A DNA stretch of 42,955 nt from a virus. The notes beneath the pieces were generated by a model that worked only from the letters and a program-made list of their open reading frames with translations, was not told the DNA's origin and did no database searches. The translations under genes and the position numbers were made by a program. Below, one piece after another: positions 6,153-42,955 of the stretch; positions within the stretch are counted from its first letter, which is position 1; each line of letters starts with the position of its first letter. The DNA lies in IMG/VR virus record IMGVR_UViG_3300045738_002441, positions 1-42,955 of that record. The stretch is one strand, 5' to 3'.

Positions 6153-6938
6153 CTACTTTTCCTCACAAAATATGCCGCAGTCAGGCATGGATTTCAGCGC
6201 CCTGCCTTTTGCTTTGGGGTCTAGTTCATCCAAGAAGATCCGCTCGTTATTGACGCGGGCCAGCTTCGCGCCAAGCCGGCGTGATTGCTCGGCGCGCTGG
6301 CGAAACACTTCCGGGTGCGTTTTGCGGACAAGATTCCAATATGTCGGGCTGGTTGCCTTGACGCACCCGATGCAGTTGGCATTTGGATACCCAAGGCGGT
6401 ACATCTCAGGCAACTCAATGCCCTCGCGCCGAAGCATGTCCCAGCAGTCTTCCTTAGTCATCCCAGCATCAATCAGGACTGGCAGGACGTTCTCACGCTC
6501 GGTTAAAACGAACCGCTCATGGCGCTTCTTTTCGTCGGCTGTGAACCCGAGAACATGCCAGTCAGCGTGGTTCGTTTTTTCCCACTCGTATCGGGCGTCT
6601 TTTTTGAGTTTGTCAGTACACGGGGCGACAGACCCTTTGCCGGGAACGATGATTGACATAGCGCCGCGATGATCCCAAACGTCTACGCAATCGTTTGTGG
6701 GGTATTTTGGGTTTTGGGCGTCCTCTATTTCGACCCCGACCCATTCAGCCACATCGATTAAAAAGCGTCGGTTGTCCTCGTGCTCGTTCAAAATGGGGTT
6801 ATTGACAGCCCGAACACGATCCGCCCCGTATTTATCTACGGTTAGCTTCAGCGCGACGGCGCTGGCGGCACCACATGAAAACCATACTGCGATTATACCT
6901 TTGCTGTTGTCTGCTTTGATTTGCTCGATCATGCTCAT
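6153..6938 (-). CDS. phage PAPS-reductase/adenine-nucleotide alpha hydrolase-like protein
   Basis: 261 residues. An N-terminal P-loop-like motif WFSCGAAS (19-26), a variant of the SGGKDS pyrophosphatase loop, marks the PAPS reductase/ATP-PPase superfamily found in many phages. Cysteines at 107, 189 and 192 (NANCIGCVK) and at 254 and 258 (PDCGIFC) could hold a metal or Fe-S cluster or act in sulfur transfer. Family members include sulfonucleotide reductases and DndC-like enzymes; the substrate here cannot be read from sequence. Its ATG overlaps the preceding stop (ATGA). Confidence 0.8.
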   Translation of the reverse strand: MSMIEQIKADNSKGIIAVWFSCGAASAVALKLTVDKYGADRVRAVNNPILNEHEDNRRFLIDVAEWVGVEIEDAQNPKYPTNDCVDVWDHRGAMSIIVPGKGSVAPCTDKLKKDARYEWEKTNHADWHVLGFTADEKKRHERFVLTERENVLPVLIDAGMTKEDCWDMLRREGIELPEMYRLGYPNANCIGCVKATSPTYWNLVRKTHPEVFRQRAEQSRRLGAKLARVNNERIFLDELDPKAKGRALKSMPDCGIFCEEK

Positions 6939-8343: not shown

Positions 8344-8400
8344 ACTAAATTAGACAAAAGGCTAACACAACCCCTAAAATAGACATGTGTCTAATTTAGT
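8344..8400. repeat. 13-bp inverted repeat around the leftward promoter
   Basis: ACTAAATTAGACA (8344-8356) is matched by its exact reverse complement TGTCTAATTTAGT (8388-8400), with 31 nt between. Both arms contain the TTAGAC half-site of the operators, and TAGAC is also directly repeated at 8341-8355. This would suit cooperative repressor binding or a DNA loop over the leftward promoter. Confidence 0.65.
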
Positions 8401-8407
8401 TTGTCAG
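8376..8407 (-). promoter_or_regulatory. candidate leftward early promoter
   Basis: On the minus strand a CTGACA -35-like box (8407-8402) and a TATTTT -10-like box (8381-8376) flank the operator. The 20-nt spacing is longer than ideal, so the exact boxes are uncertain. The position between repressor gene and early operon, with an operator in the middle, supports a repressed promoter here. Confidence 0.4.
8380..8393. promoter_or_regulatory. operator, TAGAC-N4-GTCTA (leftward promoter)
   Basis: TAGAC ATGT GTCTA is a perfect dyad with a 4-nt centre. The same dyad (TTAGAC-N4-GTCTAA) lies at 8903-8918 in the rightward promoter. Matching sites at the two divergent early promoters around a repressor gene are the expected layout of a phage immunity region. 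Confidence 0.75.
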
Positions 8408-8468
8408 GTAACCTTACGGTTGCAAAGAATCGCAACCTTGCTCAATATGGAACAAAGGGAGTACCGAA

Positions 8469-8654
8469 TTGCACGAATACAATGATTTTCTAGAGATTTT
8501 GAAAGACGCGCCTGACGGCATCGCAAGAGCAATTATCGCTGATCTTAGCCGACAAGGCCACGAACGCTTGCTATCAGAAACTTGCGCTGTTCTTCGTCAA
8601 GCTGGTAAAACAGTTCGCGAAGTTCCTCGTATGCCTGATCATCGTCAACACTAA
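8469..8654 (+). CDS. possible TTG-start gene antisense to the repressor end
   Basis: A 61-codon frame opens with TTG (LHEYNDFLEILKDAPDG), seven bases after a good GGGAG Shine-Dalgarno (8457-8461). It covers the gap left of the repressor gene and runs 110 nt into its 3' end on the opposite strand. The first 25 residues look protein-like; the rest is constrained by the repressor coding strand. A 6-bp hairpin, GGTTGC / GCAACC (8418-8437), precedes it. It may be a real short gene or chance. Confidence 0.35.
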   Translation: MHEYNDFLEILKDAPDGIARAIIADLSRQGHERLLSETCAVLRQAGKTVREVPRMPDHRQH

Positions 8655-8832
8655 GGCCCAGCACATTAGCAAGTGCCCGCGCGTTGTCGGCGTTGGTGCT
8701 TGCGCCCTCACGTTTCAGAAACTTATCTATAGCGTGATACGGTACACCCGACCTGCGCGACAGGTCGGCCTTAGAAATGTTTCGTTCTTTGATTTCAGCG
8801 AGAACCCGGTCTCTAAATGATTTTCCAGCCAT
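8545..8832 (-). CDS. CI-like HTH repressor without peptidase domain
   Basis: 95 residues from the ATG at 8832 (MAGKSFRDRVLAEIKERNIS). The HTH (about 18-45) reads K-A-D-L-S-R-R-S-G-V-P-Y-H-A-I-D-K-F-L-K. The short C-terminus, E-E-L-R-E-L-F-Y-Q-L-D-E-E-Q, is probably for dimerisation. There is no S24/LexA-type autocleavage domain. A longer start at 8886 has a GAGGT nine bases upstream but would put operator half-site sequence into the protein. A CATTAT box seven bases before 8832 suggests a leaderless mRNA. It should bind the TAGAC-N4-GTCTA sites. Confidence 0.8.
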   Translation of the reverse strand: MAGKSFRDRVLAEIKERNISKADLSRRSGVPYHAIDKFLKREGASTNADNARALANVLGLSVDDDQAYEELRELFYQLDEEQRKFLIASVRGLVG

Positions 8833-8892
8833 AGCCAGATAATGGCACGGCGGAAAATATGGGGCTACAAGCCGATTGTCTAACATCTGTTG

Positions 8893-8921
8893 TTGACCTC
8901 ACTTAGACATAAGTCTAAACA
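8893..8921 (+). promoter_or_regulatory. rightward early promoter
   Basis: TTGACC (8893-8898), a 17-nt spacer and TAAACA (8916-8921) precede the cro-like ATG at 8927. The predicted start of transcription falls at or beside the ATG, and no Shine-Dalgarno is at a normal distance, so the mRNA may be leaderless. The operator fills the spacer, so repressor binding would block polymerase. Confidence 0.6.
8903..8918. promoter_or_regulatory. operator, TTAGAC-N4-GTCTAA (rightward promoter)
   Basis: A perfect 6-bp dyad with ATAA at the centre lies between the -35 and -10 boxes. It matches the site at 8380-8393. A single half-site, TGTCTAA, is at 8877-8883, which may help the repressor control its own gene. 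Confidence 0.8.
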
Positions 8922-8926
8922 TAGGT

Positions 8927-9139
8927 ATGCAGCATTCAGAAGTTATCAAGGCCATCGAGGCCCACGCCGCCGACTTTAACATTGGCGAGCCGACAATTGG
9001 GCAGATGGCGGTGCAGAACCGCCACGCCTGCGAACGTATCCGAAAAGGCACTGCAAGCATCGGGACTATGCAGCGCGTCTTGGACTTCATCAAAGATGAT
9101 CGGCAAGCACGAAAGCGCTCGAAGCGGGGTGCAGCATGA
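8927..9139 (+). CDS. Cro-like small DNA-binding protein
   Basis: 70 residues. T-I-G-Q-M-A-V-Q-N-R-H-A-C-E-R-I-R-K-G (about 23-41) reads as a short helix-turn-helix, with a basic tail (QARKRSKRG). It is the first gene after the rightward promoter, divergent from the repressor, the position of Cro. Role by position: repress the early promoters and favour lytic growth. Direct homology to known Cro proteins is not obvious. Confidence 0.6.
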   Translation: MQHSEVIKAIEAHAADFNIGEPTIGQMAVQNRHACERIRKGTASIGTMQRVLDFIKDDRQARKRSKRGAA

Positions 9140-16235: not shown

Positions 16236-16311
16236 GGGGCGTTAGCTCAGTTGGGAGAGCACCTGCCTTGCAAGCAGGGGGTCGCGAGTTCGAGCCTCGC
16301 ACGCTCCACCA
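16236..16311 (+). tRNA. tRNA-Ala (anticodon UGC)
   Basis: A 76-nt cloverleaf. Acceptor arm GGGGCGT / ACGCTCC, D arm GCTC / GAGC, anticodon arm CCTGC-CTTGCAA-GCAGG with TGC anticodon, five-nt variable loop, and T arm GCGAG-TTCGAGC-CTCGC. CCA is encoded. All arms pair (one G-U in the acceptor). It reads GCA codons and lies in the middle of the phage, so it is cargo, not an attachment site at an end. Confidence 0.95.
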
Positions 16312-17729: not shown

Positions 17730-18048
17730 CAAGCGCAAGCCATACCGATGGGGTGGCAAGACAAGGCACGAACGAGGGTATGGCAGTAATTGGGACAGGC
17801 TGCGTAAGGTCATACTGAAGCGCGACAACTATCTATGCCAGCGCTGTCTATCCAGAGACAGAACAACTGAACTGATGGTTAAGCCATACGACCACGCAGT
17901 TGACCACATCATACCGAAGGCTAAGGGCGGCACAGACGGGCACAGCAACCTGCAAAGCCTGTGCGCCCCATGCCATGAGATCAAGACGGAAGAAGACAAG
18001 GCCCCTAGAACCGACCGGTTGCAACGCCCTGATGGATGGAACCCATAG
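17686..18048 (+). CDS. terminase-associated HNH endonuclease
   Basis: 120 residues. R-G-Y-G-S-N-W-D-R-L-R leads into an HNH core with C-x2-C (CQRC, about 51-54), D-H-I-I-P-K-A-K-G-G-T-D (about 73-84), N-L-Q-S-L-C-A-P-C-H. HNH proteins of this type sit next to terminase in HK97-like phages and are needed for cos cleavage with the terminase in some of them. GGAGG lies six bases before the start. It is distinct from the homing-type HNH gene upstream. Confidence 0.9.
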   Translation: MATTRTTAEHRASDDKRKPYRWGGKTRHERGYGSNWDRLRKVILKRDNYLCQRCLSRDRTTELMVKPYDHAVDHIIPKAKGGTDGHSNLQSLCAPCHEIKTEEDKAPRTDRLQRPDGWNP

Positions 18049-18162
18049 CAACTAGGGGGGGGTATGTCGAAAGTCTGAGGGGGTAGTATCGGGACCGTAT
18101 CCCGCTCCTTCGTGTGCGAAAAATCCTGTGGGGAAACGGGGTAGGGGCCAAGGGATTAGAGC
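18049..18162. promoter_or_regulatory. cos-like region before the small terminase
   Basis: Non-coding 114 nt with an unusual G8 run (18055-18062), TATGTCGAAAGTCTGA, another G5 run, and a CGGGA / TCCCG hairpin near 18089-18103. G-runs followed by a GTCGAAAGT-like element between HNH and terS are a feature I associate with HK97-type phages, and cos sites lie in this interval in several of them. The nick positions cannot be read from sequence. Confidence 0.4.
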
Positions 18163-18558
18163 ATGACAGTCAAAATCATCCAGCCAAGATACAAAACGGT
18201 GTTTAAAAACAACGACGAAAAGGCTGAACTAGCCCGCCTATTCTGGGCAGAGGCTGTTGAGCATCTTGAGCAGAATGGTTTCACGACAAAGACAAGGCTG
18301 GCGACTGCGGACAGGTATGTCCGGGCGCGTGTCGAGTTCGAATTTCTCTCTCCTATCGCTCTTGAAGAGGGGCCGGTGAAAGAAGGCCCGAACGGCGGCG
18401 ATGTTTTCAACTTCAACTGGTCAGCGGTTAAGAAGCTGGGCGACGAAATACTGAAGTATGAAGAATCGTTGCTAATCTCGCCCAAAGCAGCGGGCGGCGT
18501 AATCATTAACAGGCCACCAACGAAACCAGCCGCAGCCGATGAGTTTCTTGAGGACTGA
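18163..18558 (+). CDS. terS: terminase small subunit, P27 family
   Basis: 131 residues: A-R-L-F-W-A-E-A-V-E-H-L near 23-34, T-A-D-R-Y-V-R-A-R-V-E-F near 48-59, E-G-P-V-K-E-G-P-N-G-G-D-V-F-N near 69-83, and S-A-V-K-K-L-G-D-E-I-L. This is the P27-type TerS form. It recognises the packaging site and recruits TerL. The 3' end is close to or overlaps terL depending on its start. Confidence 0.85.
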   Translation: MTVKIIQPRYKTVFKNNDEKAELARLFWAEAVEHLEQNGFTTKTRLATADRYVRARVEFEFLSPIALEEGPVKEGPNGGDVFNFNWSAVKKLGDEILKYEESLLISPKAAGGVIINRPPTKPAAADEFLED

Positions 18559-18574
18559 CCGACAGGCGGCATTC

Positions 18575-20341
18575 ATGGATCAGACAACGGACTATGCGCG
18601 GCGGGTTGTCTCGGGCGAGATTGTCAGCGGCGAGTTTGCCAGATTGGCGGCAAAACGGCACCTTGATGATTTAGAGCACGGGCATGAACGCGGTTTGAGG
18701 TGGGTTCCCGAAGATGCGGAACGGTTTTTCCGCTGGTGTGAATCGGTTCTGGCCGTGACCGAGGGCGCGAAAGAAGGCCACCCTTTTAAGCCGCTTCCTT
18801 GGCACATCTTTGCAACGGGTTCGCTGTTCGGGTGGAAGAATAAAAACGGGCATCTTCGGTTCCGCCAAAACTGGTGGGAGACAGGCAAGGGTCAAGCTAA
18901 AAGCCCCATGATGGCGGCGATTGGTATCTACCTGCTGGGCTTCTACAATTTGAAGCGGCCCGAAGTTTACATGATTGGCGAAGTGAAAGACACGGCGCGA
19001 GTGATGTTCAAGGACGCGTGCGGCATGGTGCGTGGCCCGATCCCGAACAAGGGCGGCGAAAGGTTGCTTGACCGTGGGTTTATTATTCGCGGCACGGGCG
19101 ACAACGCCTATAAGATTGAATGTCCTAAAACGAGCGGCTTTATGCAGCCCGTTGCCAACGGTGACGCCATATCAGGGCCTAAGCCTTCGGCGGTTCTTGC
19201 TGACGAGATCCACGAACTGAAATCAGCCAAGGGGCTGAACATGTGGCGGGCGTCCGTTGCTAAGAAGCACGGCGACAGTATCATGGTTTTGGGCACGAAT
19301 ACGCCCTCAGTCGATCAGCATGTTGGGACGGAGTATAGCGAGAAGTTCCAGAAGATTTTGCGCGGTGAGTTCACCGACGACAGCGCGTTTGCATACATTG
19401 CCCGGGTAGATGTTGGTGATAACCCGTTTGAAGATGATACGTGCTGGATCAAATCCCTTCCCGCTTTGGGGATTACGTTCCTGAAAGAGAATGTTCAGGC
19501 AGAGGTCAATTCTGCCAAGCAATCTATCAGCACGTCTCTAACGACCAAACGCCTTTATTTCGGCATCCCTGTAGGTGTGGCGGGGTTCTGGATCGATGAA
19601 GCCGCATGGATGAAGGTCCAGGGCGAAGTTGACGAAGAGGCGATGAGCGGGCGCAAGTTGCATTTGGCTTTGGATCTGGCTGATAAAAACGACCTTACGG
19701 CGCTTTCTGGGTGCTGGGAAGGCGACACGCTGGCGGTCAAAAGTTGGTACTGGACCCGAGAAACAAACATAGAAGACAGAAGCACGGCGGATCAGATTCC
19801 ATACCGCGAGATCGAAGCGGCGGGGCAGATTACGATAACGCCGACCCCGACAATTGATTTTGAGTTTGTCGCAGCACAGGTGCAAGACCTTTGTTCGCGT
19901 CATGATGTGGCGCAGCTCGTCTTTGACGTCACCAAGATTGATGATTTTATCAAGGCATGTGGAAAGATCGGCTTTGATGTGTGGCGGTATGCTGGGCCGG
20001 ATGAACCCTCTGGGGTTGGCTTAAAGCTGGTGGCACACGCGCAGGGGCCAAGAGTGATCTTTGAGGGTAAACAGCTTTGTATGCCCGTTTCTATCAGGCA
20101 CTTTGAAGACCACATTCTAAAGGGCACGGTCGAGATTGATCGGAGCCGATTGACGGACATTTGCGCATCCAATGCGGTAATTGTGGCGGATGCTCAGAAG
20201 AACAAGTTTTACGACAAGAATAAGAGCCGGGGCCGGATTGACGGGCTTGTGACCATCGCCATGGCGGTGGGTTCAGCGACCTCCGAAATGGAAGATAGAG
20301 GCCCGTCTGTTTATACAGAGCGCGGCCTTTTGGTAATGTGA
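18575..20341 (+). CDS. terL: terminase large subunit (HK97-like)
   Basis: 588 residues. The ATPase domain has a Walker-A-like E-T-G-K-G-Q-A-K-S (102-110) and Walker B A-V-L-A-D-E-I-H-E-L (D210-E211). The C-terminal nuclease begins L-H-L-A-L-D-L-A-D-K-N-D near 360, with D-V-T-K-I-D-D later. It translocates and cuts DNA during head filling. The start at 18575 is preferred because AGGCGG precedes it; ATG 18539 is in frame but lacks a ribosome site. Confidence 0.95.
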   Translation: MDQTTDYARRVVSGEIVSGEFARLAAKRHLDDLEHGHERGLRWVPEDAERFFRWCESVLAVTEGAKEGHPFKPLPWHIFATGSLFGWKNKNGHLRFRQNWWETGKGQAKSPMMAAIGIYLLGFYNLKRPEVYMIGEVKDTARVMFKDACGMVRGPIPNKGGERLLDRGFIIRGTGDNAYKIECPKTSGFMQPVANGDAISGPKPSAVLADEIHELKSAKGLNMWRASVAKKHGDSIMVLGTNTPSVDQHVGTEYSEKFQKILRGEFTDDSAFAYIARVDVGDNPFEDDTCWIKSLPALGITFLKENVQAEVNSAKQSISTSLTTKRLYFGIPVGVAGFWIDEAAWMKVQGEVDEEAMSGRKLHLALDLADKNDLTALSGCWEGDTLAVKSWYWTRETNIEDRSTADQIPYREIEAAGQITITPTPTIDFEFVAAQVQDLCSRHDVAQLVFDVTKIDDFIKACGKIGFDVWRYAGPDEPSGVGLKLVAHAQGPRVIFEGKQLCMPVSIRHFEDHILKGTVEIDRSRLTDICASNAVIVADAQKNKFYDKNKSRGRIDGLVTIAMAVGSATSEMEDRGPSVYTERGLLVM

Positions 20342-20349
20342 GGAAACGA

Positions 20350-21633
20350 ATGGACCTTTTAGGAATGTTCCGGCGCGGGTCGGGTGCGCCAGAGCAGCCG
20401 AAAGCGTCGTATCAAGATAACGGCGGGGGTGTAGTTATTAACACGCCGCAAGATTTAGCCGATGCTATCGCGGGCGGTAATGAAAGCCGTTCGGGGGCGG
20501 TGGTGACGGCGAACAATGCAATGAAGGTTGCAACTGTTTACGCCTGTGTTCGTCTTATTTCCGGAGCGGTGGCAACAATGCCACTTCACATCAAGCGGCG
20601 CGTAAATGACCGCGTGCGCGAGGATGCTTCGGACTCAAGCCTATGGCGTGTTCTGCGGAGAAAGCCGAATAGCTGGCAAAAGCCCGCTGTTTTCCGTCGA
20701 ATGATGCAGACGCACATGCTCCTTCGCGGCAACGCTTACGCGCTGATTGTTCGGTCGCGCGGCGAAGTGGTGGCACTCCTTCCGATGCACCCTGATCGTG
20801 TAGAGTGCAAGCAAAACGACGATATGTCGCTAACGTATACTTTCACCCGCAAGAATGGTGCGCGGGTTATTTTGCCGCAATCTGACGTTTTCCACCTTGT
20901 CGGGCTGACGCTGGACGGTGTGAACGGCGTCACGCCTATTACGTTTGCCCGAGAGACAATCGGGCTTGCCATGAGCATGGAAAATCACGGCTCAAATGTC
21001 TTCCGCAACGGTGCGCAGGTTTCCAGCGTTCTAAAGCACCCTCAGAAATTGGGGATTGAAGGCCAAACCGTTCTTAGGTCCAGCTTGGACGCGTTTAGAT
21101 CGGGCGGCGAGAACGAAGCTAAGACGCTCATTCTTGAGGAGGGCATGGACTTTGCCCCTATGGCAATGACCGCACAGGATGCGCAGTGGATTGAAAGCCG
21201 CAAAATGTCGCGCTCTGAGATTGCGATGTTCTTTGGCGTTCCGCCTTCGATGATCGGCGATAACACTGGCAGCGATTCCAATTGGGGCACCGGCCTAGAG
21301 CAGAAATCAAACGGCTTTGTCGCCTACGGTTTGGAAGACCACTTGACGATGTGGGAAGAGGCCATCGGCTTTGACCTGATCGGCGATGATAGCCCTGATT
21401 TATACGCACGTTTTAACCGCTCTGCGCTTGCGCGTGGCGATATCAAGACACGAACTGAGGCAATGACCAAGCGTTTACAGTGGGGCGTAACATCGCCTGA
21501 CGAGGAACGCGCCCTAGAGGATTGGAACCCGCGCTCCGATGGCGGCGGCGGGATCTACTATGACCCGCCAAACACGGCAGGCGGGACAGAAAAGGAGACG
21601 GCCAATGAGCCTGATGAAACTTCCAGAGATTAA
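20350..21633 (+). CDS. portal protein, HK97 family
   Basis: 427 residues: MDLLGMFRRGS, then V-A-T-V-Y-A-C-V-R-L-I-S-G-A-V-A (about 60-75), L-R-G-N-A-Y-A-L-I, and F-G-V-P-P-S-M-I-G-D. It forms the 12-fold ring at the head vertex for packaging and tail joining. GAGGA lies five bases before 20350, better than the GTG at 20338 that overlaps the terL stop. The 3' end overlaps the protease start by 29 nt. Confidence 0.95.
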   Translation: MDLLGMFRRGSGAPEQPKASYQDNGGGVVINTPQDLADAIAGGNESRSGAVVTANNAMKVATVYACVRLISGAVATMPLHIKRRVNDRVREDASDSSLWRVLRRKPNSWQKPAVFRRMMQTHMLLRGNAYALIVRSRGEVVALLPMHPDRVECKQNDDMSLTYTFTRKNGARVILPQSDVFHLVGLTLDGVNGVTPITFARETIGLAMSMENHGSNVFRNGAQVSSVLKHPQKLGIEGQTVLRSSLDAFRSGGENEAKTLILEEGMDFAPMAMTAQDAQWIESRKMSRSEIAMFFGVPPSMIGDNTGSDSNWGTGLEQKSNGFVAYGLEDHLTMWEEAIGFDLIGDDSPDLYARFNRSALARGDIKTRTEAMTKRLQWGVTSPDEERALEDWNPRSDGGGGIYYDPPNTAGGTEKETANEPDETSRD

Positions 21634-37226: not shown

Positions 37227-37322
37227 ATGACCAATTCCAGCGCCTCGGCGTTGCCAATATCCGTGCGCGTTGCTCTTGAGGTGGCGCGTGCGGCCCATTC
37301 TGCATGGAGAAATCATGGATAA
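37227..37322 (+). CDS. 31-aa leader peptide of the endolysin gene
   Basis: MTNSSASALPISVRVALEVA and 11 further residues, with AAAGGA seven bases upstream. It ends inside the first codons of the endolysin gene (overlap 37315-37322). The peptide is polar-helical, with no signal. It may couple endolysin translation; this is a small frame, so chance is possible. Confidence 0.4.
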   Translation: MTNSSASALPISVRVALEVARAAHSAWRNHG

Positions 37323-37938
37323 TTCCAGCAAAGCAATCCCCAAAATCCTAGAGCATGAGGGCGGCTTCGTAAATCACCCCTCAGATCCAGGCGGCGCGAC
37401 GAACAAGGGCATCACGCTTGCCACGTTCCGCCGCTACATCAAGCCAAACGGAACCGTTGCGGATCTGAAAGCGCTGACGACGGCGCAGGCGGTGGCGGTC
37501 TATAAGCGGCAATACTGGGACGCGGTGAGCGCTGACCTCCTGCCGTCTGGCGTTGATTATGCCGTTGCAGACTTCGCGGTCAACAGCGGGCCATCGCGGG
37601 CGGCGAAGTATCTGCAAGCGGTGGTCGGCGCGACACAGGACGGGCAGATTGGCCCCGCGACTATCGCAGCCACAAAGACAATGCCCCCGCGTGAAGTGAT
37701 CGAACGACTGTGCGACGACCGGCTTGCGTTCATGAAGCGGATTCAGGGCGGCAAGCTGTGGCAGACCTTTGGCCGTGGGTGGCAGCGCCGCGTTGACGAC
37801 GTTCGCGCCGTGTCCCTGTCATGGGCCGCACAAGCGCCTGTGGACCACGTATCGCCACCGACCCCCGCAACACCCCCGCAACGCAGCGTATGGGCCGCTC
37901 TGGTCGCCGCGCTGCGCTCTCTCTGGAAAAGGACATAA
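37315..37938 (+). CDS. GH108 endolysin (N-acetylmuramidase type)
   Basis: 207 residues. I-L-E-H-E-G-G-F-V-N-H-P-S-D-P-G-G-A-T-N-K-G-I-T (about 11-34) carries catalytic E15 in the E-G-G-F/Y motif of glycoside hydrolase family 108. A peptidoglycan-binding part follows near 95-150 (G-A-T-Q-D-G-Q-I-G-P-A-T-I). There is no signal peptide, so it needs the holin. GGAGA is four bases before the start. The tail (180-207) is Pro-rich and basic. Confidence 0.92.
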   Translation: MDNSSKAIPKILEHEGGFVNHPSDPGGATNKGITLATFRRYIKPNGTVADLKALTTAQAVAVYKRQYWDAVSADLLPSGVDYAVADFAVNSGPSRAAKYLQAVVGATQDGQIGPATIAATKTMPPREVIERLCDDRLAFMKRIQGGKLWQTFGRGWQRRVDDVRAVSLSWAAQAPVDHVSPPTPATPPQRSVWAALVAALRSLWKRT

Positions 37939-39080: not shown

Positions 39081-39272
39081 ATGCGTGACCGGATCGTTGC
39101 CGCCGTTGAAAGCCTGTCGTGGCGCTCCTGCTACCTAGTTACCGGCCTGCGTATCTCGTGGTGCGGCTTGGCGCATTGGGCGGGCAGGCGGCGCGTGGTG
39201 TGGGTGCTGGATAGGCTGTTCCATCGTCGGGAAACTAACCATTGCAGCCGTTCGTTTGAGCGGTGGTATTAG
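39081..39272 (+). CDS. last gene of the rightward late operon (63 aa)
   Basis: 63 residues: M-R-D-R-I-V-A-A-V-E-S-L-S-W, rich in Trp, Arg and Cys. AAGGAG lies seven bases upstream, a strong ribosome site. No family is recognised. Its stop abuts the terminator hairpin at 39271, and its 3' end overlaps a convergent gene by 38 nt. Confidence 0.6.
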   Translation: MRDRIVAAVESLSWRSCYLVTGLRISWCGLAHWAGRRRVVWVLDRLFHRRETNHCSRSFERWY

Positions 39273-39402
39273 CCGCGTCCTCTTGATTGGGGGCGCGGCT
39301 TTCGTCGTTCATGGGGCGCTCTGTTATGACCGCCTCTATCGTGCGTAGTTGGAAAGCAGCCTTGGCCTTTGCCAGATCGCGCAGAACGGCTGCGGCGTCC
39401 AT
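39235..39402 (-). CDS. 55-aa hypothetical protein
   Basis: MDAAAVLRDLAKAKAAFQLR, helical first half, polar Asn/Thr-rich end. The start overlaps the upstream gene's stop by one base (TGATG). Its 3' end crosses the late-operon terminator and the end of the convergent gene, so it marks the end of the leftward accessory operon. Function is unknown. Confidence 0.55.
   Translation of the reverse strand: MDAAAVLRDLAKAKAAFQLRTIEAVITERPMNDESRAPNQEDAANTTAQTNGCNG
39271..39303 (+). terminator. strong terminator of the late operon
   Basis: AGCCGCGTCCTC pairs with GGGGGCGCGGCT (39271-39282 / 39289-39300, 12 pairs with G-U allowed) around TTGATT, followed by TTTC. It lies at the end of the lysis genes and stops the rightward transcript before the leftward accessory genes. 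Confidence 0.75.
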
Positions 39403-39722
39403 CACTCTCCCCCTTCTGACAGGGCGCGTAAAGCGGCGGCCATAGCTGCGGGTGCGTCACGCTGGTCGGCTTCTTCCCAAAACGCATTCCAAACAGCCTG
39501 CCAGTCAATATCGCCTTTGTTCATTTCGGGGTGGTCGAATGGGTTTTCCATCTTATCCAGCAGCACCTTCGCCGCCTCTGCTACCGTAATAGGGCGGGCG
39601 TCAGCGCGGATGTATTCAACAGCGTCTGGACCGCCAGCGTCCGGCCAATCCCAAGGCCCCGAAGCCCAGTTGTCGTTTTGAGCAGAAACCAATGCCCATA
39701 TCCTGCTTGGCGCGTCTGTCAT
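39402..39722 (-). CDS. hypothetical accessory protein (106 aa)
   Basis: 106 residues. The opening I-W-A-L-V-S-A-Q-N-D-N-W with later D-A-V-E-Y-I-R-A-D is a motif found in many short phage proteins. The rest, D-I-D-W-Q-A-V-W-N-A-F-W-E-E-A-D, is helical, aromatic and acidic. ATGA overlap with the gene before it. Function is unknown. Confidence 0.7.
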   Translation of the reverse strand: MTDAPSRIWALVSAQNDNWASGPWDWPDAGGPDAVEYIRADARPITVAEAAKVLLDKMENPFDHPEMNKGDIDWQAVWNAFWEEADQRDAPAAMAAALRALSEGGE

Positions 39723-40234
39723 GTCGTCTCCTTTGCTGCGGCTAGGAAGGCCAAGTCAGATGTGTTGTCATAGCCATTAGATGCCATCCAATCTGCTATA
39801 GACTCTACATATTCCACCAGCGCCTTAATCTTGGCGTCTTTGGCGTCTTGGGCGTCGATGTGGGCGGAAGGTTCGCGGTGATTTGAGTAAACGGTCTTTG
39901 GTGAGATGGTGGCATCGGTATATCCTTTCCGCCATCCAAATTGACCGTTGGTAAATCCAGCGTCAGCCAAAGATTGCCTTGCGTCGCGCTCTGTCGTAAA
40001 CTCCCCAAAGTGAACGGCTGGACCGCGCAGTTCGTTTCCAGACGTGTATGTCGTGACGTTCCATACCTTCGCGTAGTCGCAAACCCCGTTTTCTGTCGCT
40101 TTGGCCCGTTCATTAAGGGGTCGGTATTCTTCGCGCAGCCGTGCGATCTCGGCGCACATTTCGCGAACCTCCTCATCATTTAGAACCATACCCCGTGCCA
40201 TTACTTCTAGCGGATATTTTGCCCAGTCTGTCAT
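39719..40234 (-). CDS. hypothetical accessory protein (171 aa)
   Basis: The start at 40234 (MTDWAKYPLEVMARGM) has a perfect AAGGAGG eight bases upstream. An N-terminal helical part (E-V-R-E-M-C-A-E-I-A-R-L-R-E-E) leads to a beta-rich centre (A-V-H-F-G-E-F-T-T-E-R-D-A-R-Q-S-L) and a helical end. No family is recognised. It is the largest gene of the leftward accessory operon. Confidence 0.7.
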   Translation of the reverse strand: MTDWAKYPLEVMARGMVLNDEEVREMCAEIARLREEYRPLNERAKATENGVCDYAKVWNVTTYTSGNELRGPAVHFGEFTTERDARQSLADAGFTNGQFGWRKGYTDATISPKTVYSNHREPSAHIDAQDAKDAKIKALVEYVESIADWMASNGYDNTSDLAFLAAAKETT

Positions 40235-40262
40235 CGTCTCTGCCTCCTTGGCGTGGTGGGGG

Positions 40263-40568
40263 TTAGGCGTCCAGTGACAGCTCACCGTATGAGCCTATGT
40301 GCCTCTCCATGCTGTCAACGCTCAGAAGCAGGCCGCGTCGTGTCAACTCCGCAATGAAATCGGTGTGCACGTCGCCATCATACCAGCCCGCCTTCGCTTC
40401 GGCCTGTGATTCCTTTTCCCGTATCTCGCCTGCGATATGCCGAGCGTCGCCAATTGTTAGGTTGTCCAGCGCAACGAAATCGCCAAACAAACTGTAGTCG
40501 CTGTATTCTCCGGTGGTGAAGTGTACCAGCTTGCCAGCGGTTAGAAACATCTCTGGGTTTTCGTCCAT
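40263..40568 (-). CDS. hypothetical accessory protein (101 aa)
   Basis: 101 residues, acidic: H-F-T-T-G-E-Y-S-D-Y-S-L-F-G-D-F-V-A-L near 16-34 and T-D-F-I-A-E-L-T-R-R-G-L-L near 69-81. AGGAG is upstream. The E-Y-S-D-Y motif appears in other small phage proteins. Function is unknown. Confidence 0.7.
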   Translation of the reverse strand: MDENPEMFLTAGKLVHFTTGEYSDYSLFGDFVALDNLTIGDARHIAGEIREKESQAEAKAGWYDGDVHTDFIAELTRRGLLLSVDSMERHIGSYGELSLDA

Positions 40569-40632
40569 CGTTCTCTCTCCTTTATCCGTTGAGCCTAGAC
40601 ATGCTCAGGTGTTGCGCCGGTAGGGCGGGGGT

Positions 40633-40803
40633 TCACGAAACCAGTTCGTCGGGGTCCAACCCGAACCGCTGGCAAAGATGGTGTGCGTTGGTCTTTCCAA
40701 TCGCAAATACATGCATCACCGCGACCCAGCGATAATGCTTTCCGCGCTTAAATTTATCGCGCGCCGCGTGGACTGCCCGCTCCAATAATTGTTCGTCGCT
40801 CAT
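40633..40803 (-). CDS. 56-aa small helical protein, HTH-like
   Basis: The start at 40803 (MSDEQLLERAVHAARDKFKR) has GGGAGG five bases upstream; longer in-frame starts overlap the upstream gene. The end, A-H-H-L-C-Q-R-F-G-L-D-P-D-E-L-V, looks like a single HTH-type helix pair. It may bind DNA and regulate this block, inferred weakly. Confidence 0.6.
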   Translation of the reverse strand: MSDEQLLERAVHAARDKFKRGKHYRWVAVMHVFAIGKTNAHHLCQRFGLDPDELVS

Positions 40804-40819
40804 GCTGGCCTCCCGGGGG

Positions 40820-41035
40820 TTACACGAATGCGCTATAGCCGGAAGCGCCTCCGCTCTCTTTGGCTTCCAGCAGCCGTAGTCCAGCCTCCATTTCCAGGAT
40901 CTTCTGCCGCAGAAAGTCGGGGTACGATGACCGACTGCTAAGCGGAGCAGAGCGGTTGATTTCATCACACTCCGCAATCTCTGCCCGACGCCTCGAAATT
41001 TCAGCTTTCAGCTTATTGATTTGCGTATCCATCAT
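40820..41035 (-). CDS. coiled-coil protein, first gene of the leftward accessory operon
   Basis: 71 residues: I-N-K-L-K-A-E-I-S-R-R-R-A-E-I-A-E, then a second helix, I-L-E-M-E-A-G-L-R-L-L-E. AGGAG is just upstream; the first or second Met may start. It follows the TTGACA promoter at 41080. Function is unknown. Confidence 0.65.
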   Translation of the reverse strand: MMDTQINKLKAEISRRRAEIAECDEINRSAPLSSRSSYPDFLRQKILEMEAGLRLLEAKESGGASGYSAFV

Positions 41036-41061
41036 TCATCTCCTATCTGCTGCTAAATCTT

Positions 41062-41107
41062 GGCATAAAGAATGCCCCTTGTCAACTGCCAATCGTTGGC
41101 GTAATAT
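41062..41107. promoter_or_regulatory. divergent promoter pair sharing one -35 box, with two palindromes
   Basis: Rightward: TTGTCA (41079-41084), 17 nt, TAATAT (41102-41107). Leftward: TTGACA (41085-41080), 17 nt, CAAGAT. The two -35 boxes overlap. A palindrome sits in each spacer: GGCAT-AAAGA-ATGCC (41062-41076) and GCCAA-TCG-TTGGC (41088-41100). These look like operators controlling both accessory operons. Confidence 0.65.
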
Positions 41108-41113
41108 AACCCC

Positions 41114-41287
41114 ATGACATGGCAAGAGAAACTGAGCGCGTCAGAGCGCCGTAAACTAGACGCAGCCCGCAATCGCCGCGATAAATTCGCGGGTGAATAC
41201 AAAGCGTTGCGACTGAAACTTAAGAGCAAGGCGGATGCGCTGATACGGGCCGAGAAAGCCAAGACGCCACCCCCTTCTAAGCAATAA
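41114..41287 (+). CDS. 57-aa basic helical protein, probably leaderless
   Basis: MTWQEKLSASERRKLDAARN, strongly basic throughout, ending T-P-P-P-S-K-Q. The ATG is about seven bases after the TAATAT box with no Shine-Dalgarno, so the mRNA should be leaderless. It may bind nucleic acid because of charge. No family is recognised. Confidence 0.6.
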   Translation: MTWQEKLSASERRKLDAARNRRDKFAGEYKALRLKLKSKADALIRAEKAKTPPPSKQ

Positions 41288-41299
41288 GGAGAACACCCC

Positions 41300-41485
41300 G
41301 TGAGATACGAGCCGAGCCTTTTACGCAAAGTGAACGAGACCCCCGCGCTTCTATCGCTGCTGCATGACGCGAACCTTTTGCCGGAACAGGTCAACAGCGA
41401 ACGCGACTTCACATGCTTGCAGGCCGTCGTGCTTGCCTACAGCGCTGGCGAACAGGCGTCACAGCCCGCCCGCCGCGAACCCTGA
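41300..41485 (+). CDS. small hypothetical protein (61 aa)
   Basis: From GTG 41300 with AAGGAG eight bases upstream: M-R-Y-E-P-S-L-L-R-K-V-N-E-T-P. Helical, followed by Q-A-V-V-L-A-Y-S-A-G-E. Belongs to the short rightward accessory operon. No family is recognised. Confidence 0.6.
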   Translation: MRYEPSLLRKVNETPALLSLLHDANLLPEQVNSERDFTCLQAVVLAYSAGEQASQPARREP

Positions 41486-41505
41486 CCATATCAAAGGAGA
41501 GAGAC

Positions 41506-41724
41506 GTGGGACTGATAGATGATCTGAGCGACGCGCAACTAAGCGCCTCGGCATCGTCGCTAAACAATGGCTGCGCGGGATGCGGTCAGGATAGCAACAC
41601 TCTTTCGGATGCGGTGGACACTATAGAGGGGCTAAGCCTTCTCGCTGCGGAATTGTGGGGGATGCTGACGCCGGAGCAAAAGCGCCGCCTAGAGGACCGA
41701 TATCATCTGGCGCAAGCGTTTTGA
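41506..41724 (+). CDS. small hypothetical protein (72 aa)
   Basis: From GTG 41506 with AAGGAG six bases upstream: M-G-L-I-D-D-L-S-D-A-Q-L. A C-x2-C pair (C-A-G-C) near residue 24 and a helical C-terminus (P-E-Q-K-R-R-L-E-D-R-Y-H) follow. It ends 40 nt before the convergent integrase gene end. No family is recognised. Confidence 0.6.
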   Translation: MGLIDDLSDAQLSASASSLNNGCAGCGQDSNTLSDAVDTIEGLSLLAAELWGMLTPEQKRRLEDRYHLAQAF

Positions 41725-41764: not shown

Positions 41765-42955
41765 CTACCCCCGCAGCTTGATTACCTCAGCGCTGGATTG
41801 CGTCACATGCGCGGCCCACTTGTCCATGACGATCCGGCGGCGGTCTAGCAGATCCGAGCGGGCATAGGCGCGTTCAACACGGCCCTTGATCTGGTGCCCC
41901 AATATGGTTTCGGCAACGTCCCAAGGCTGGTCTGTATCTTCGGCCCACGTTCGAAAGCTGGACCGGAACCCGTGCGGCCGGCCGGCCTCCCCCTGAGCGG
42001 CGAGTTCCTTGCGTAGCGCTGCCTCAGTGATATGACCGCCTCGCTTGCGGTAGGACGGGAACAAGTAGGTTTCATTCACCTTACGCGCCGTTTCGATGAT
42101 CTCTAGCGCCTCGTCGCCAAGGGGAACCCTGAACGGCTGAACCTTCCCCCGCATCCCTTTTATCCTGTCGGCCGGCACCGTCCATATGCCGTCCTCTATC
42201 TCGTCAAACCGCGCCCCAAGGCATCCGGCTTCCCGTACGCAGGTTAATATCATCCACCGCAAGCACAGCTTAGGCGATGACATGCCGGCCAGCTTGCCAT
42301 ACAGCGCCGGCACCTCTTGCCAGGGCGTCGAAGTCACGTTTTCGGTTTGGTGGTCTACCTTCCCCAGCATAACGCGGGCAGCATCAGCGACGAACGGCCG
42401 GCAGTCATACCCCATGAGTTCGGCTTGCTGAAATATGAAGCGGGTTCTCTGCCATGCCTTTACGGCCGTAGGGTGTTTGGTTTTCCAGATCGGCCGTAGG
42501 CAGGTGGCAATATCGGATTGGTGAATTTCGGATATGCGGCGCTGGCCTAGCTTCGGGATCACATGCACGCGCAACGGGCTGAACCATTTCCCTCTGTCGC
42601 CATCCCCGCGCAAGCCGGCCTTGTGTGATTCAAATACCAGTTCGGCAATATCGGCAAAGGTGGGGGCCTCTTTGTCCTGAGCGGCTTTCTCGGCGTCTCT
42701 CAGGCGGTTGCGCTCCGATATCGGGTCAACCCCCGACGCAAGGACGCCGGCCCACGTATCACGCGCCTTTCTGGCGTCGGCTAAACCGACGGCATCCAAG
42801 GTGCCAAGCCCCATTTCGCGGGTCTGCTTTAGGTGGGTGTAGCGCCATATCCAGTTGCCGCCCGCCTCCTTCTTAATGAGGAAAAGCCCGCCGCCATCAA
42901 AGAGCCGGCCGGGCTTTGAATTGCGCACGGCAATGGATGTTAGCTTGTTCTTCAC
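41765..42955 (-). CDS. int: tyrosine-type phage integrase
   Basis: 396 residues from the GTG at the window edge. DUF4102-like N-terminus (S-K-P-G-R-L-F-D-G-G-G-L-F-L), core-binding domain (about 98-190), and catalytic domain with R241, H328, R331, H354 and Y364 in place. It catalyses integration and excision at att. The family's usual N-terminus is only slightly longer, so the protein is likely complete, but codons beyond the edge cannot be excluded. Its 5' end points out of the window, where an att site is expected. Confidence 0.95.
   Translation of the reverse strand: MKNKLTSIAVRNSKPGRLFDGGGLFLIKKEAGGNWIWRYTHLKQTREMGLGTLDAVGLADARKARDTWAGVLASGVDPISERNRLRDAEKAAQDKEAPTFADIAELVFESHKAGLRGDGDRGKWFSPLRVHVIPKLGQRRISEIHQSDIATCLRPIWKTKHPTAVKAWQRTRFIFQQAELMGYDCRPFVADAARVMLGKVDHQTENVTSTPWQEVPALYGKLAGMSSPKLCLRWMILTCVREAGCLGARFDEIEDGIWTVPADRIKGMRGKVQPFRVPLGDEALEIIETARKVNETYLFPSYRKRGGHITEAALRKELAAQGEAGRPHGFRSSFRTWAEDTDQPWDVAETILGHQIKGRVERAYARSDLLDRRRIVMDKWAAHVTQSSAEVIKLRG

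Follow-up and report, generated by a model that had tools for sequence, protein, structure and literature searches.

What do nine small genes lodged between the lysis genes and the integrase of a temperate phage do, and how are the two operons into which they fall controlled? We addressed this in virus record IMGVR_UViG_3300045738_002441, analysed over its full 42,955 bp and referred to here as the window. At the DNA level it is related to the temperate Sulfitobacter phages pCB2047-A, pCB2047-C and NYA-2014a, of which the last is prophage D of strain CB-D (PMC4047441, PMC7305329), and to an IMG/VR contig (L012). The phage of the window is a temperate marine phage of the Sulfitobacter type, and from these relatives we infer an alphaproteobacterial host.

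Position and gene content of the block

The block spans 39235-41724, with rightward genes on one side and a leftward tyrosine integrase on the other. The accessory position between lysis genes and integrase is thus as the first-pass annotation described it, and the layout is kept in related phages. Because the lysis operon and the integrase both converge on the block, it needs promoters of its own. All nine predicted genes were found as open reading frames, six leftward (m1-m6) and three rightward (p1-p3), reading out of a 78-bp spacer, with starts refined relative to the longest frames. From left to right, the features are:

37270-37938, rightward: endolysin (Glyco_hydro_108), lysis-side neighbour of the block
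39271-39300, plus strand: terminator-like hairpin (-24.6 kcal/mol, z -4.8) that would end rightward lysis-side transcripts
39402-39235, minus strand: m6, 55 aa, phrog_26696; first 45 residues 89% identical to relatives
39722-39402, minus strand: m5, 106 aa, phrog_26860; 36% identity to relatives
40234-39719, minus strand: m4, 171 aa; C-terminal part related to phrog_23493
40568-40263, minus strand: m3, 101 aa; weak match to phrog_23902; relatives have another gene here
40569-40632, minus strand: linker between m2 and m3; about 98.5% identity to relatives despite differing genes on either side
40803-40633, minus strand: m2, 56 aa; phrog_15161 small helical protein
41035-40820, minus strand: m1, 71 aa; unrelated gene in the same slot in relatives
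41114-41287, plus strand: p1, 57 aa; no Shine-Dalgarno; predicted 41-residue helix
41300-41485, plus strand: p2, 61 aa, GTG start; most conserved gene of the block
41506-41724, plus strand: p3, 72 aa, GTG start; relatives keep its start region but have a different body
41765-42955, minus strand: tyrosine integrase, convergent with p1-p3

Searches of Pfam, NCBIfam and PADLOC named none of the nine proteins, and PHROGs placed block proteins in families of unknown function. The predicted fold of m2 gave no convincing match in the PDB; m2 is absent from the close relatives and present in other phages and on plasmids. No DNA-binding domain was recognisable in p1, which sits in the slot of the relatives' helix-turn-helix (HTH) regulator SUFP_003 and has its last eight residues (KTPPPSKQ) in common with it. 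For p2, 56 of 61 residues are kept in its relative and 10 of the 15 changed codons are synonymous, a pattern that fits a protein under selection. This gene (41300-41485; L003:6375-6560) is not listed in the NC_020858, NC_020856 or NC_027299 tables, where other open reading frames are annotated nearby on the opposite strand, making p2 a pointer to unannotated genes in reference records.

Most of the genes had been credited with strong ribosome sites. This holds for eight of the nine, each with a Shine-Dalgarno-like stretch 4 to 8 nt upstream of its start, but not for p1, which has none. The same 12-mer, AAAGGAGAGAGA, serves as a ribosome site in both operons (40572-40583, minus strand; 41493-41504, plus strand).

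The integrase has about 57% identity between the window and pCB2047-A/C/NYA-2014a. The window ends, at 42955, exactly with the integrase start codon, and the NYA-2014a integrase likewise lies near one end of its record, an arrangement compatible with a prophage boundary.

Overlapping divergent promoters and candidate operators

Promoter-like sites are seen on both strands of the spacer, bearing out the proposal of back-to-back promoters with a common -35 box:

41079-41107, plus strand: rightward promoter, -35 TTGTCA (41079-41084), 17 nt, -10 TAATAT (41102-41107)
41057-41085, minus strand: leftward promoter, -35 TTGACA (41085-41080), 17 nt, -10 CAAGAT (41062-41057)
41062-41076: palindrome GGCATAAAGAATGCC, in the spacer of the leftward promoter
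41088-41100: palindrome GCCAATCGTTGGC, in the spacer of the rightward promoter; candidate operator
41052-41064: GCTAAATCTTGGC, a one-mismatch copy of GCCAATCGTTGGC, on the leftward -10

The leftward site combines a perfect -35 with a weak -10 (3 of 6 matches). TTGTCA on the plus strand and TTGACA on the minus strand overlap at 41079-41085, both boxes coming from a single 7-mer, TTGTCAA. Scored with an approximate E. coli matrix, used as a proxy for the inferred alphaproteobacterial host, the rightward and leftward promoters reach 14.2 and 11.6. Counting overlapping opposed -35 boxes whose promoters score 10 or more on each strand, we found one pair in the 43-kb window (that of the block itself) and one in NYA-2014a (42 kb), at the corresponding place; pCB2047-A and pCB2047-C, which carry the same block as NYA-2014a, have the same single pair. 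Another 170 kb of fetched phage DNA held three such pairs (two places, one locus). Among random 110-mers, pairs with both scores at least 11.5 occurred in 0.25% at local composition and in 0 of 4000 at window composition. As the threshold and matrix were picked after the site had been seen, these counts are descriptive only.

The ATG of p1 lies 7 nt past the rightward -10, and the predicted RNA start (about 41113-41114) coincides with this start codon. The NYA-2014a counterpart, SUFP_003, carries an HTH_3 domain, likewise has no Shine-Dalgarno and begins about 7 nt past a -10. Since both genes are without a Shine-Dalgarno and start where the promoter should begin the RNA, p1 is probably leaderless. 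Leaderless mRNAs have been reported for the repressor genes of lambda and PY54 (PMC4488713).

The predicted RNA starts of the two promoters are about 64 bp apart. That polymerase should fire only one way at a time, as had been claimed, stands as a steric expectation; it is qualified by work on E. coli bidirectional promoters, where competition could be neglected at basal activity and became real only with one strong direction (Warman et al. 2026; PMC12825309). Competition between polymerases at the block promoters is plausible.

A different palindrome had been assigned to each promoter spacer. Both palindromes exist, but this description is incomplete, given the near copy of GCCAATCGTTGGC on the leftward -10, an arrangement that would fit one regulator for both promoters. 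Two such repeats per 78 bp are weakly unusual (P ~0.04), and the chance of the GCTAAATCTTGGC copy in that stretch is about 0.003, as one of several comparisons. The leftward -10 of NYA-2014a lies under an inverted repeat of another sequence, TTGTGTGTAAATATTGATACACAA.

Kept and exchanged parts in related phages

The layout, p2, m6, the gene junctions and the sequence of the hairpin at the left edge (39271-39300) are kept between the window and its relatives, with stretches at 86-98% DNA identity. Unrelated proteins occupy the slots of m1, m3 and p3, and replacement extends to the control DNA and most of p1; m4 and m5 are partly related to the relatives' versions and p1 only in its tail. The pattern is mosaic exchange at gene boundaries. 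Conservation of the block as a unit applies to its layout but not to its cargo. For the conserved m2/m3 linker (40569-40632), a stable RNA fold was looked for and not found (z 0.65). Nor was homology detectable between the control DNA of the window and that of the relatives: the NYA-2014a spacer, GTTGACCGTCAAC, is 92 bp long and does not align to the 78-bp spacer of the window. The predicted m1 leader in NYA-2014a is about 32 nt.

The blocks of phages A and D (NYA-2014a) are identical over 2,624 bp. One version is common to pCB2047-A, pCB2047-C, NYA-2014a and L012, which brings the independent versions found to just two. When viral contigs were scanned, p1, m1 and p3 returned no relatives, and p2 and m6 returned only the L012 contig, whose block is that of the cultured phages. 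An exact-pattern scan for the linker also found only this contig. A search of genome contigs with p2 gave nothing, and a profile search of genomes with m2 gave one weak match. Among 13 integrase relatives checked, none had block proteins except L020, which is the L012 contig. Aligned to NYA-2014a, the block of L015 (NC_020856.2; about 17957-20578) shows a single-base gap in the tail of the HTH gene and another in p3; both fall in C runs and may be sequencing errors.

Readings of the block and comparison with known systems

The reading we favour, to which we give about an even chance, is that the block is a self-contained, moron-like accessory unit whose own divergent control region is balanced by the product of the p1 slot. 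The rightward promoter would produce a leaderless p1-p2-p3 mRNA from the p1 AUG and the leftward promoter an m1-m6 transcript, with RNA polymerase holding one orientation at a time. The p1-slot product, an HTH protein in the relatives and a basic helical one here, would bind the spacer palindromes and set the balance. That regulator and operators differ together in the relatives would then reflect an exchanged control cassette, and the cargo would be small variable phage proteins. The regulatory role of p1 is carried over from the HTH gene in the same slot of a neighbouring phage. In favour of this reading count the -35 overlap, unique in the window and recurring at the corresponding place of NYA-2014a in control DNA with no detectable homology, the HTH gene of the relatives, the missing Shine-Dalgarno of p1 and its counterpart, one operator-like repeat in each promoter, the mostly synonymous changes in p2, the separate main immunity region and the conserved hairpin at the left edge. 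The weak leftward -10, the lack of a recognisable DNA-binding domain in p1, the failure to find a terminator-like hairpin between p3 and the integrase and the small number of independent block versions count against it. The architecture is read from sequence; from it we infer activity, competition and regulation.

The Sulfitobacter block (SUFP_003 to SUFP_008) is the closest comparison, matching that of the window in position, orientation, overlapping divergent -35 boxes, a first gene lacking a Shine-Dalgarno, p2, m6 and the linkers. It differs in control DNA, in most of the first gene, which encodes an HTH protein in that block, in m1, m3 and p3, and in having no m2. Phage moron and accessory loci similarly have their own promoters (predicted here), a place outside the main operons and variable cargo in a conserved backbone, but the block comprises two operons rather than one gene. 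A strong terminator-like hairpin at the left edge (39271-39300) serves the plus strand, and a search of the interval between p3 and the integrase found no terminator-like hairpin. The bidirectional promoters of Warman et al. also offer one sequence that polymerase can occupy in one orientation or the other, not in both at once. Those, however, share a -10, with starts 7-25 bp apart and usually about 18 bp (PMC12825309, PMC10268837), whereas the block shares a -35 and has its predicted starts much further apart.

These may simply be ordinary promoters that overlap through a short spacer, giving two side-by-side operons with no switch and no dedicated regulator, and we regard this as possible though on the unlikely side. 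The 78-bp spacer, leaderless p1 and short m1 leader fit two promoters only if their -35 boxes meet, one 7-mer supplies both boxes, and competition is slight at basal E. coli bidirectional promoters (PMC12825309). Against this, the longer NYA-2014a spacer and its leader leave the overlap unforced, yet it is present there in unlike DNA, and the relatives have an HTH gene in the p1 slot. A bolder interpretation, which we consider rather unlikely, makes the control region a second, exchangeable two-way switch, in which each version would have its own leaderless regulator and matching operators, swapped from phage to phage as a cassette under an unchanged -35 geometry, and the prophage would express either the leftward cargo or the operon of the regulator.

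Whether the block could instead be another lysis-lysogeny (immunity) switch, in which the p1-slot protein would be the prophage repressor, bears on the rest of the genome, which has a probable main immunity region of its own at 8350-9139, with an HTH repressor and operator repeats:

8545-8886: HTH repressor gene, divergent from a small gene at 8927-9139
8350-8365, 8379-8394 and 8903-8918: operator-like repeats TTAGACAT..GTCTAA, flanking the HTH repressor gene

Repeats of the TTAGACAT type were sought in the block and none was found, all lying at 8350-8918. Control of the block by the main repressor through operator TTAGACATNNGTCTAA was set aside, TTAGACATNNGTCTAA being absent from the block. 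The short divergent spacer, palindromes and leaderless gene in the regulator slot do recall the immunity regions of lambda-type phages and PY54 (PMC4488713), the relatives carry an HTH protein, and Basso et al. list SUFP_003 among putative regulators (PMC7305329). The block differs in not being the phage's main immunity region, in lacking paired cI and cro, and in that an HTH gene occurs just in the relatives and there on a single side, p1 here being without an HTH. Basso et al. also found strains CB-A and CB-D each susceptible to the other's phage (PMC7305329). Phages A and D share the block exactly and so, at least in the relatives' version and for these two phages, it confers no immunity and does not exclude that partner, unlike the immunity specificity of lambda-type regions. 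This separate divergent region and the mutual infection make a role as immunity switch very improbable.

The same infections weigh on the suggestion that these are defence, anti-defence or superinfection-exclusion genes, a proposal that fared poorly and that we likewise judge most unlikely. It draws on the location, on small variable genes and on one m2 relative near a Lar-type restriction-alleviation gene (L008). Against it stand a PADLOC search of the nine window proteins that returned nothing at E values up to 1, and the fact that phages A and D, for all the identity of their blocks, can each infect lysogens of the other (PMC7305329); other phages may still be targets. SUFP_003 of the relatives gave weak RmrA matches in PADLOC (best E 0.0005).

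The block is accordingly unlikely to explain who infects whom among these phages. If the favoured reading of a moron-like unit with its own divergent control is right, the block would be a compact natural case in which promoter geometry persists through the exchange of regulator, operators and cargo, within a phage family whose cultured lysogens (Sulfitobacter CB-A and CB-D) make direct testing possible. Elsewhere in the record, a tRNA-Ala (TGC) gene lies at 16236-16311, and a gene with a PAPS-reductase domain occupies 6153-6938 in the leftward early region.
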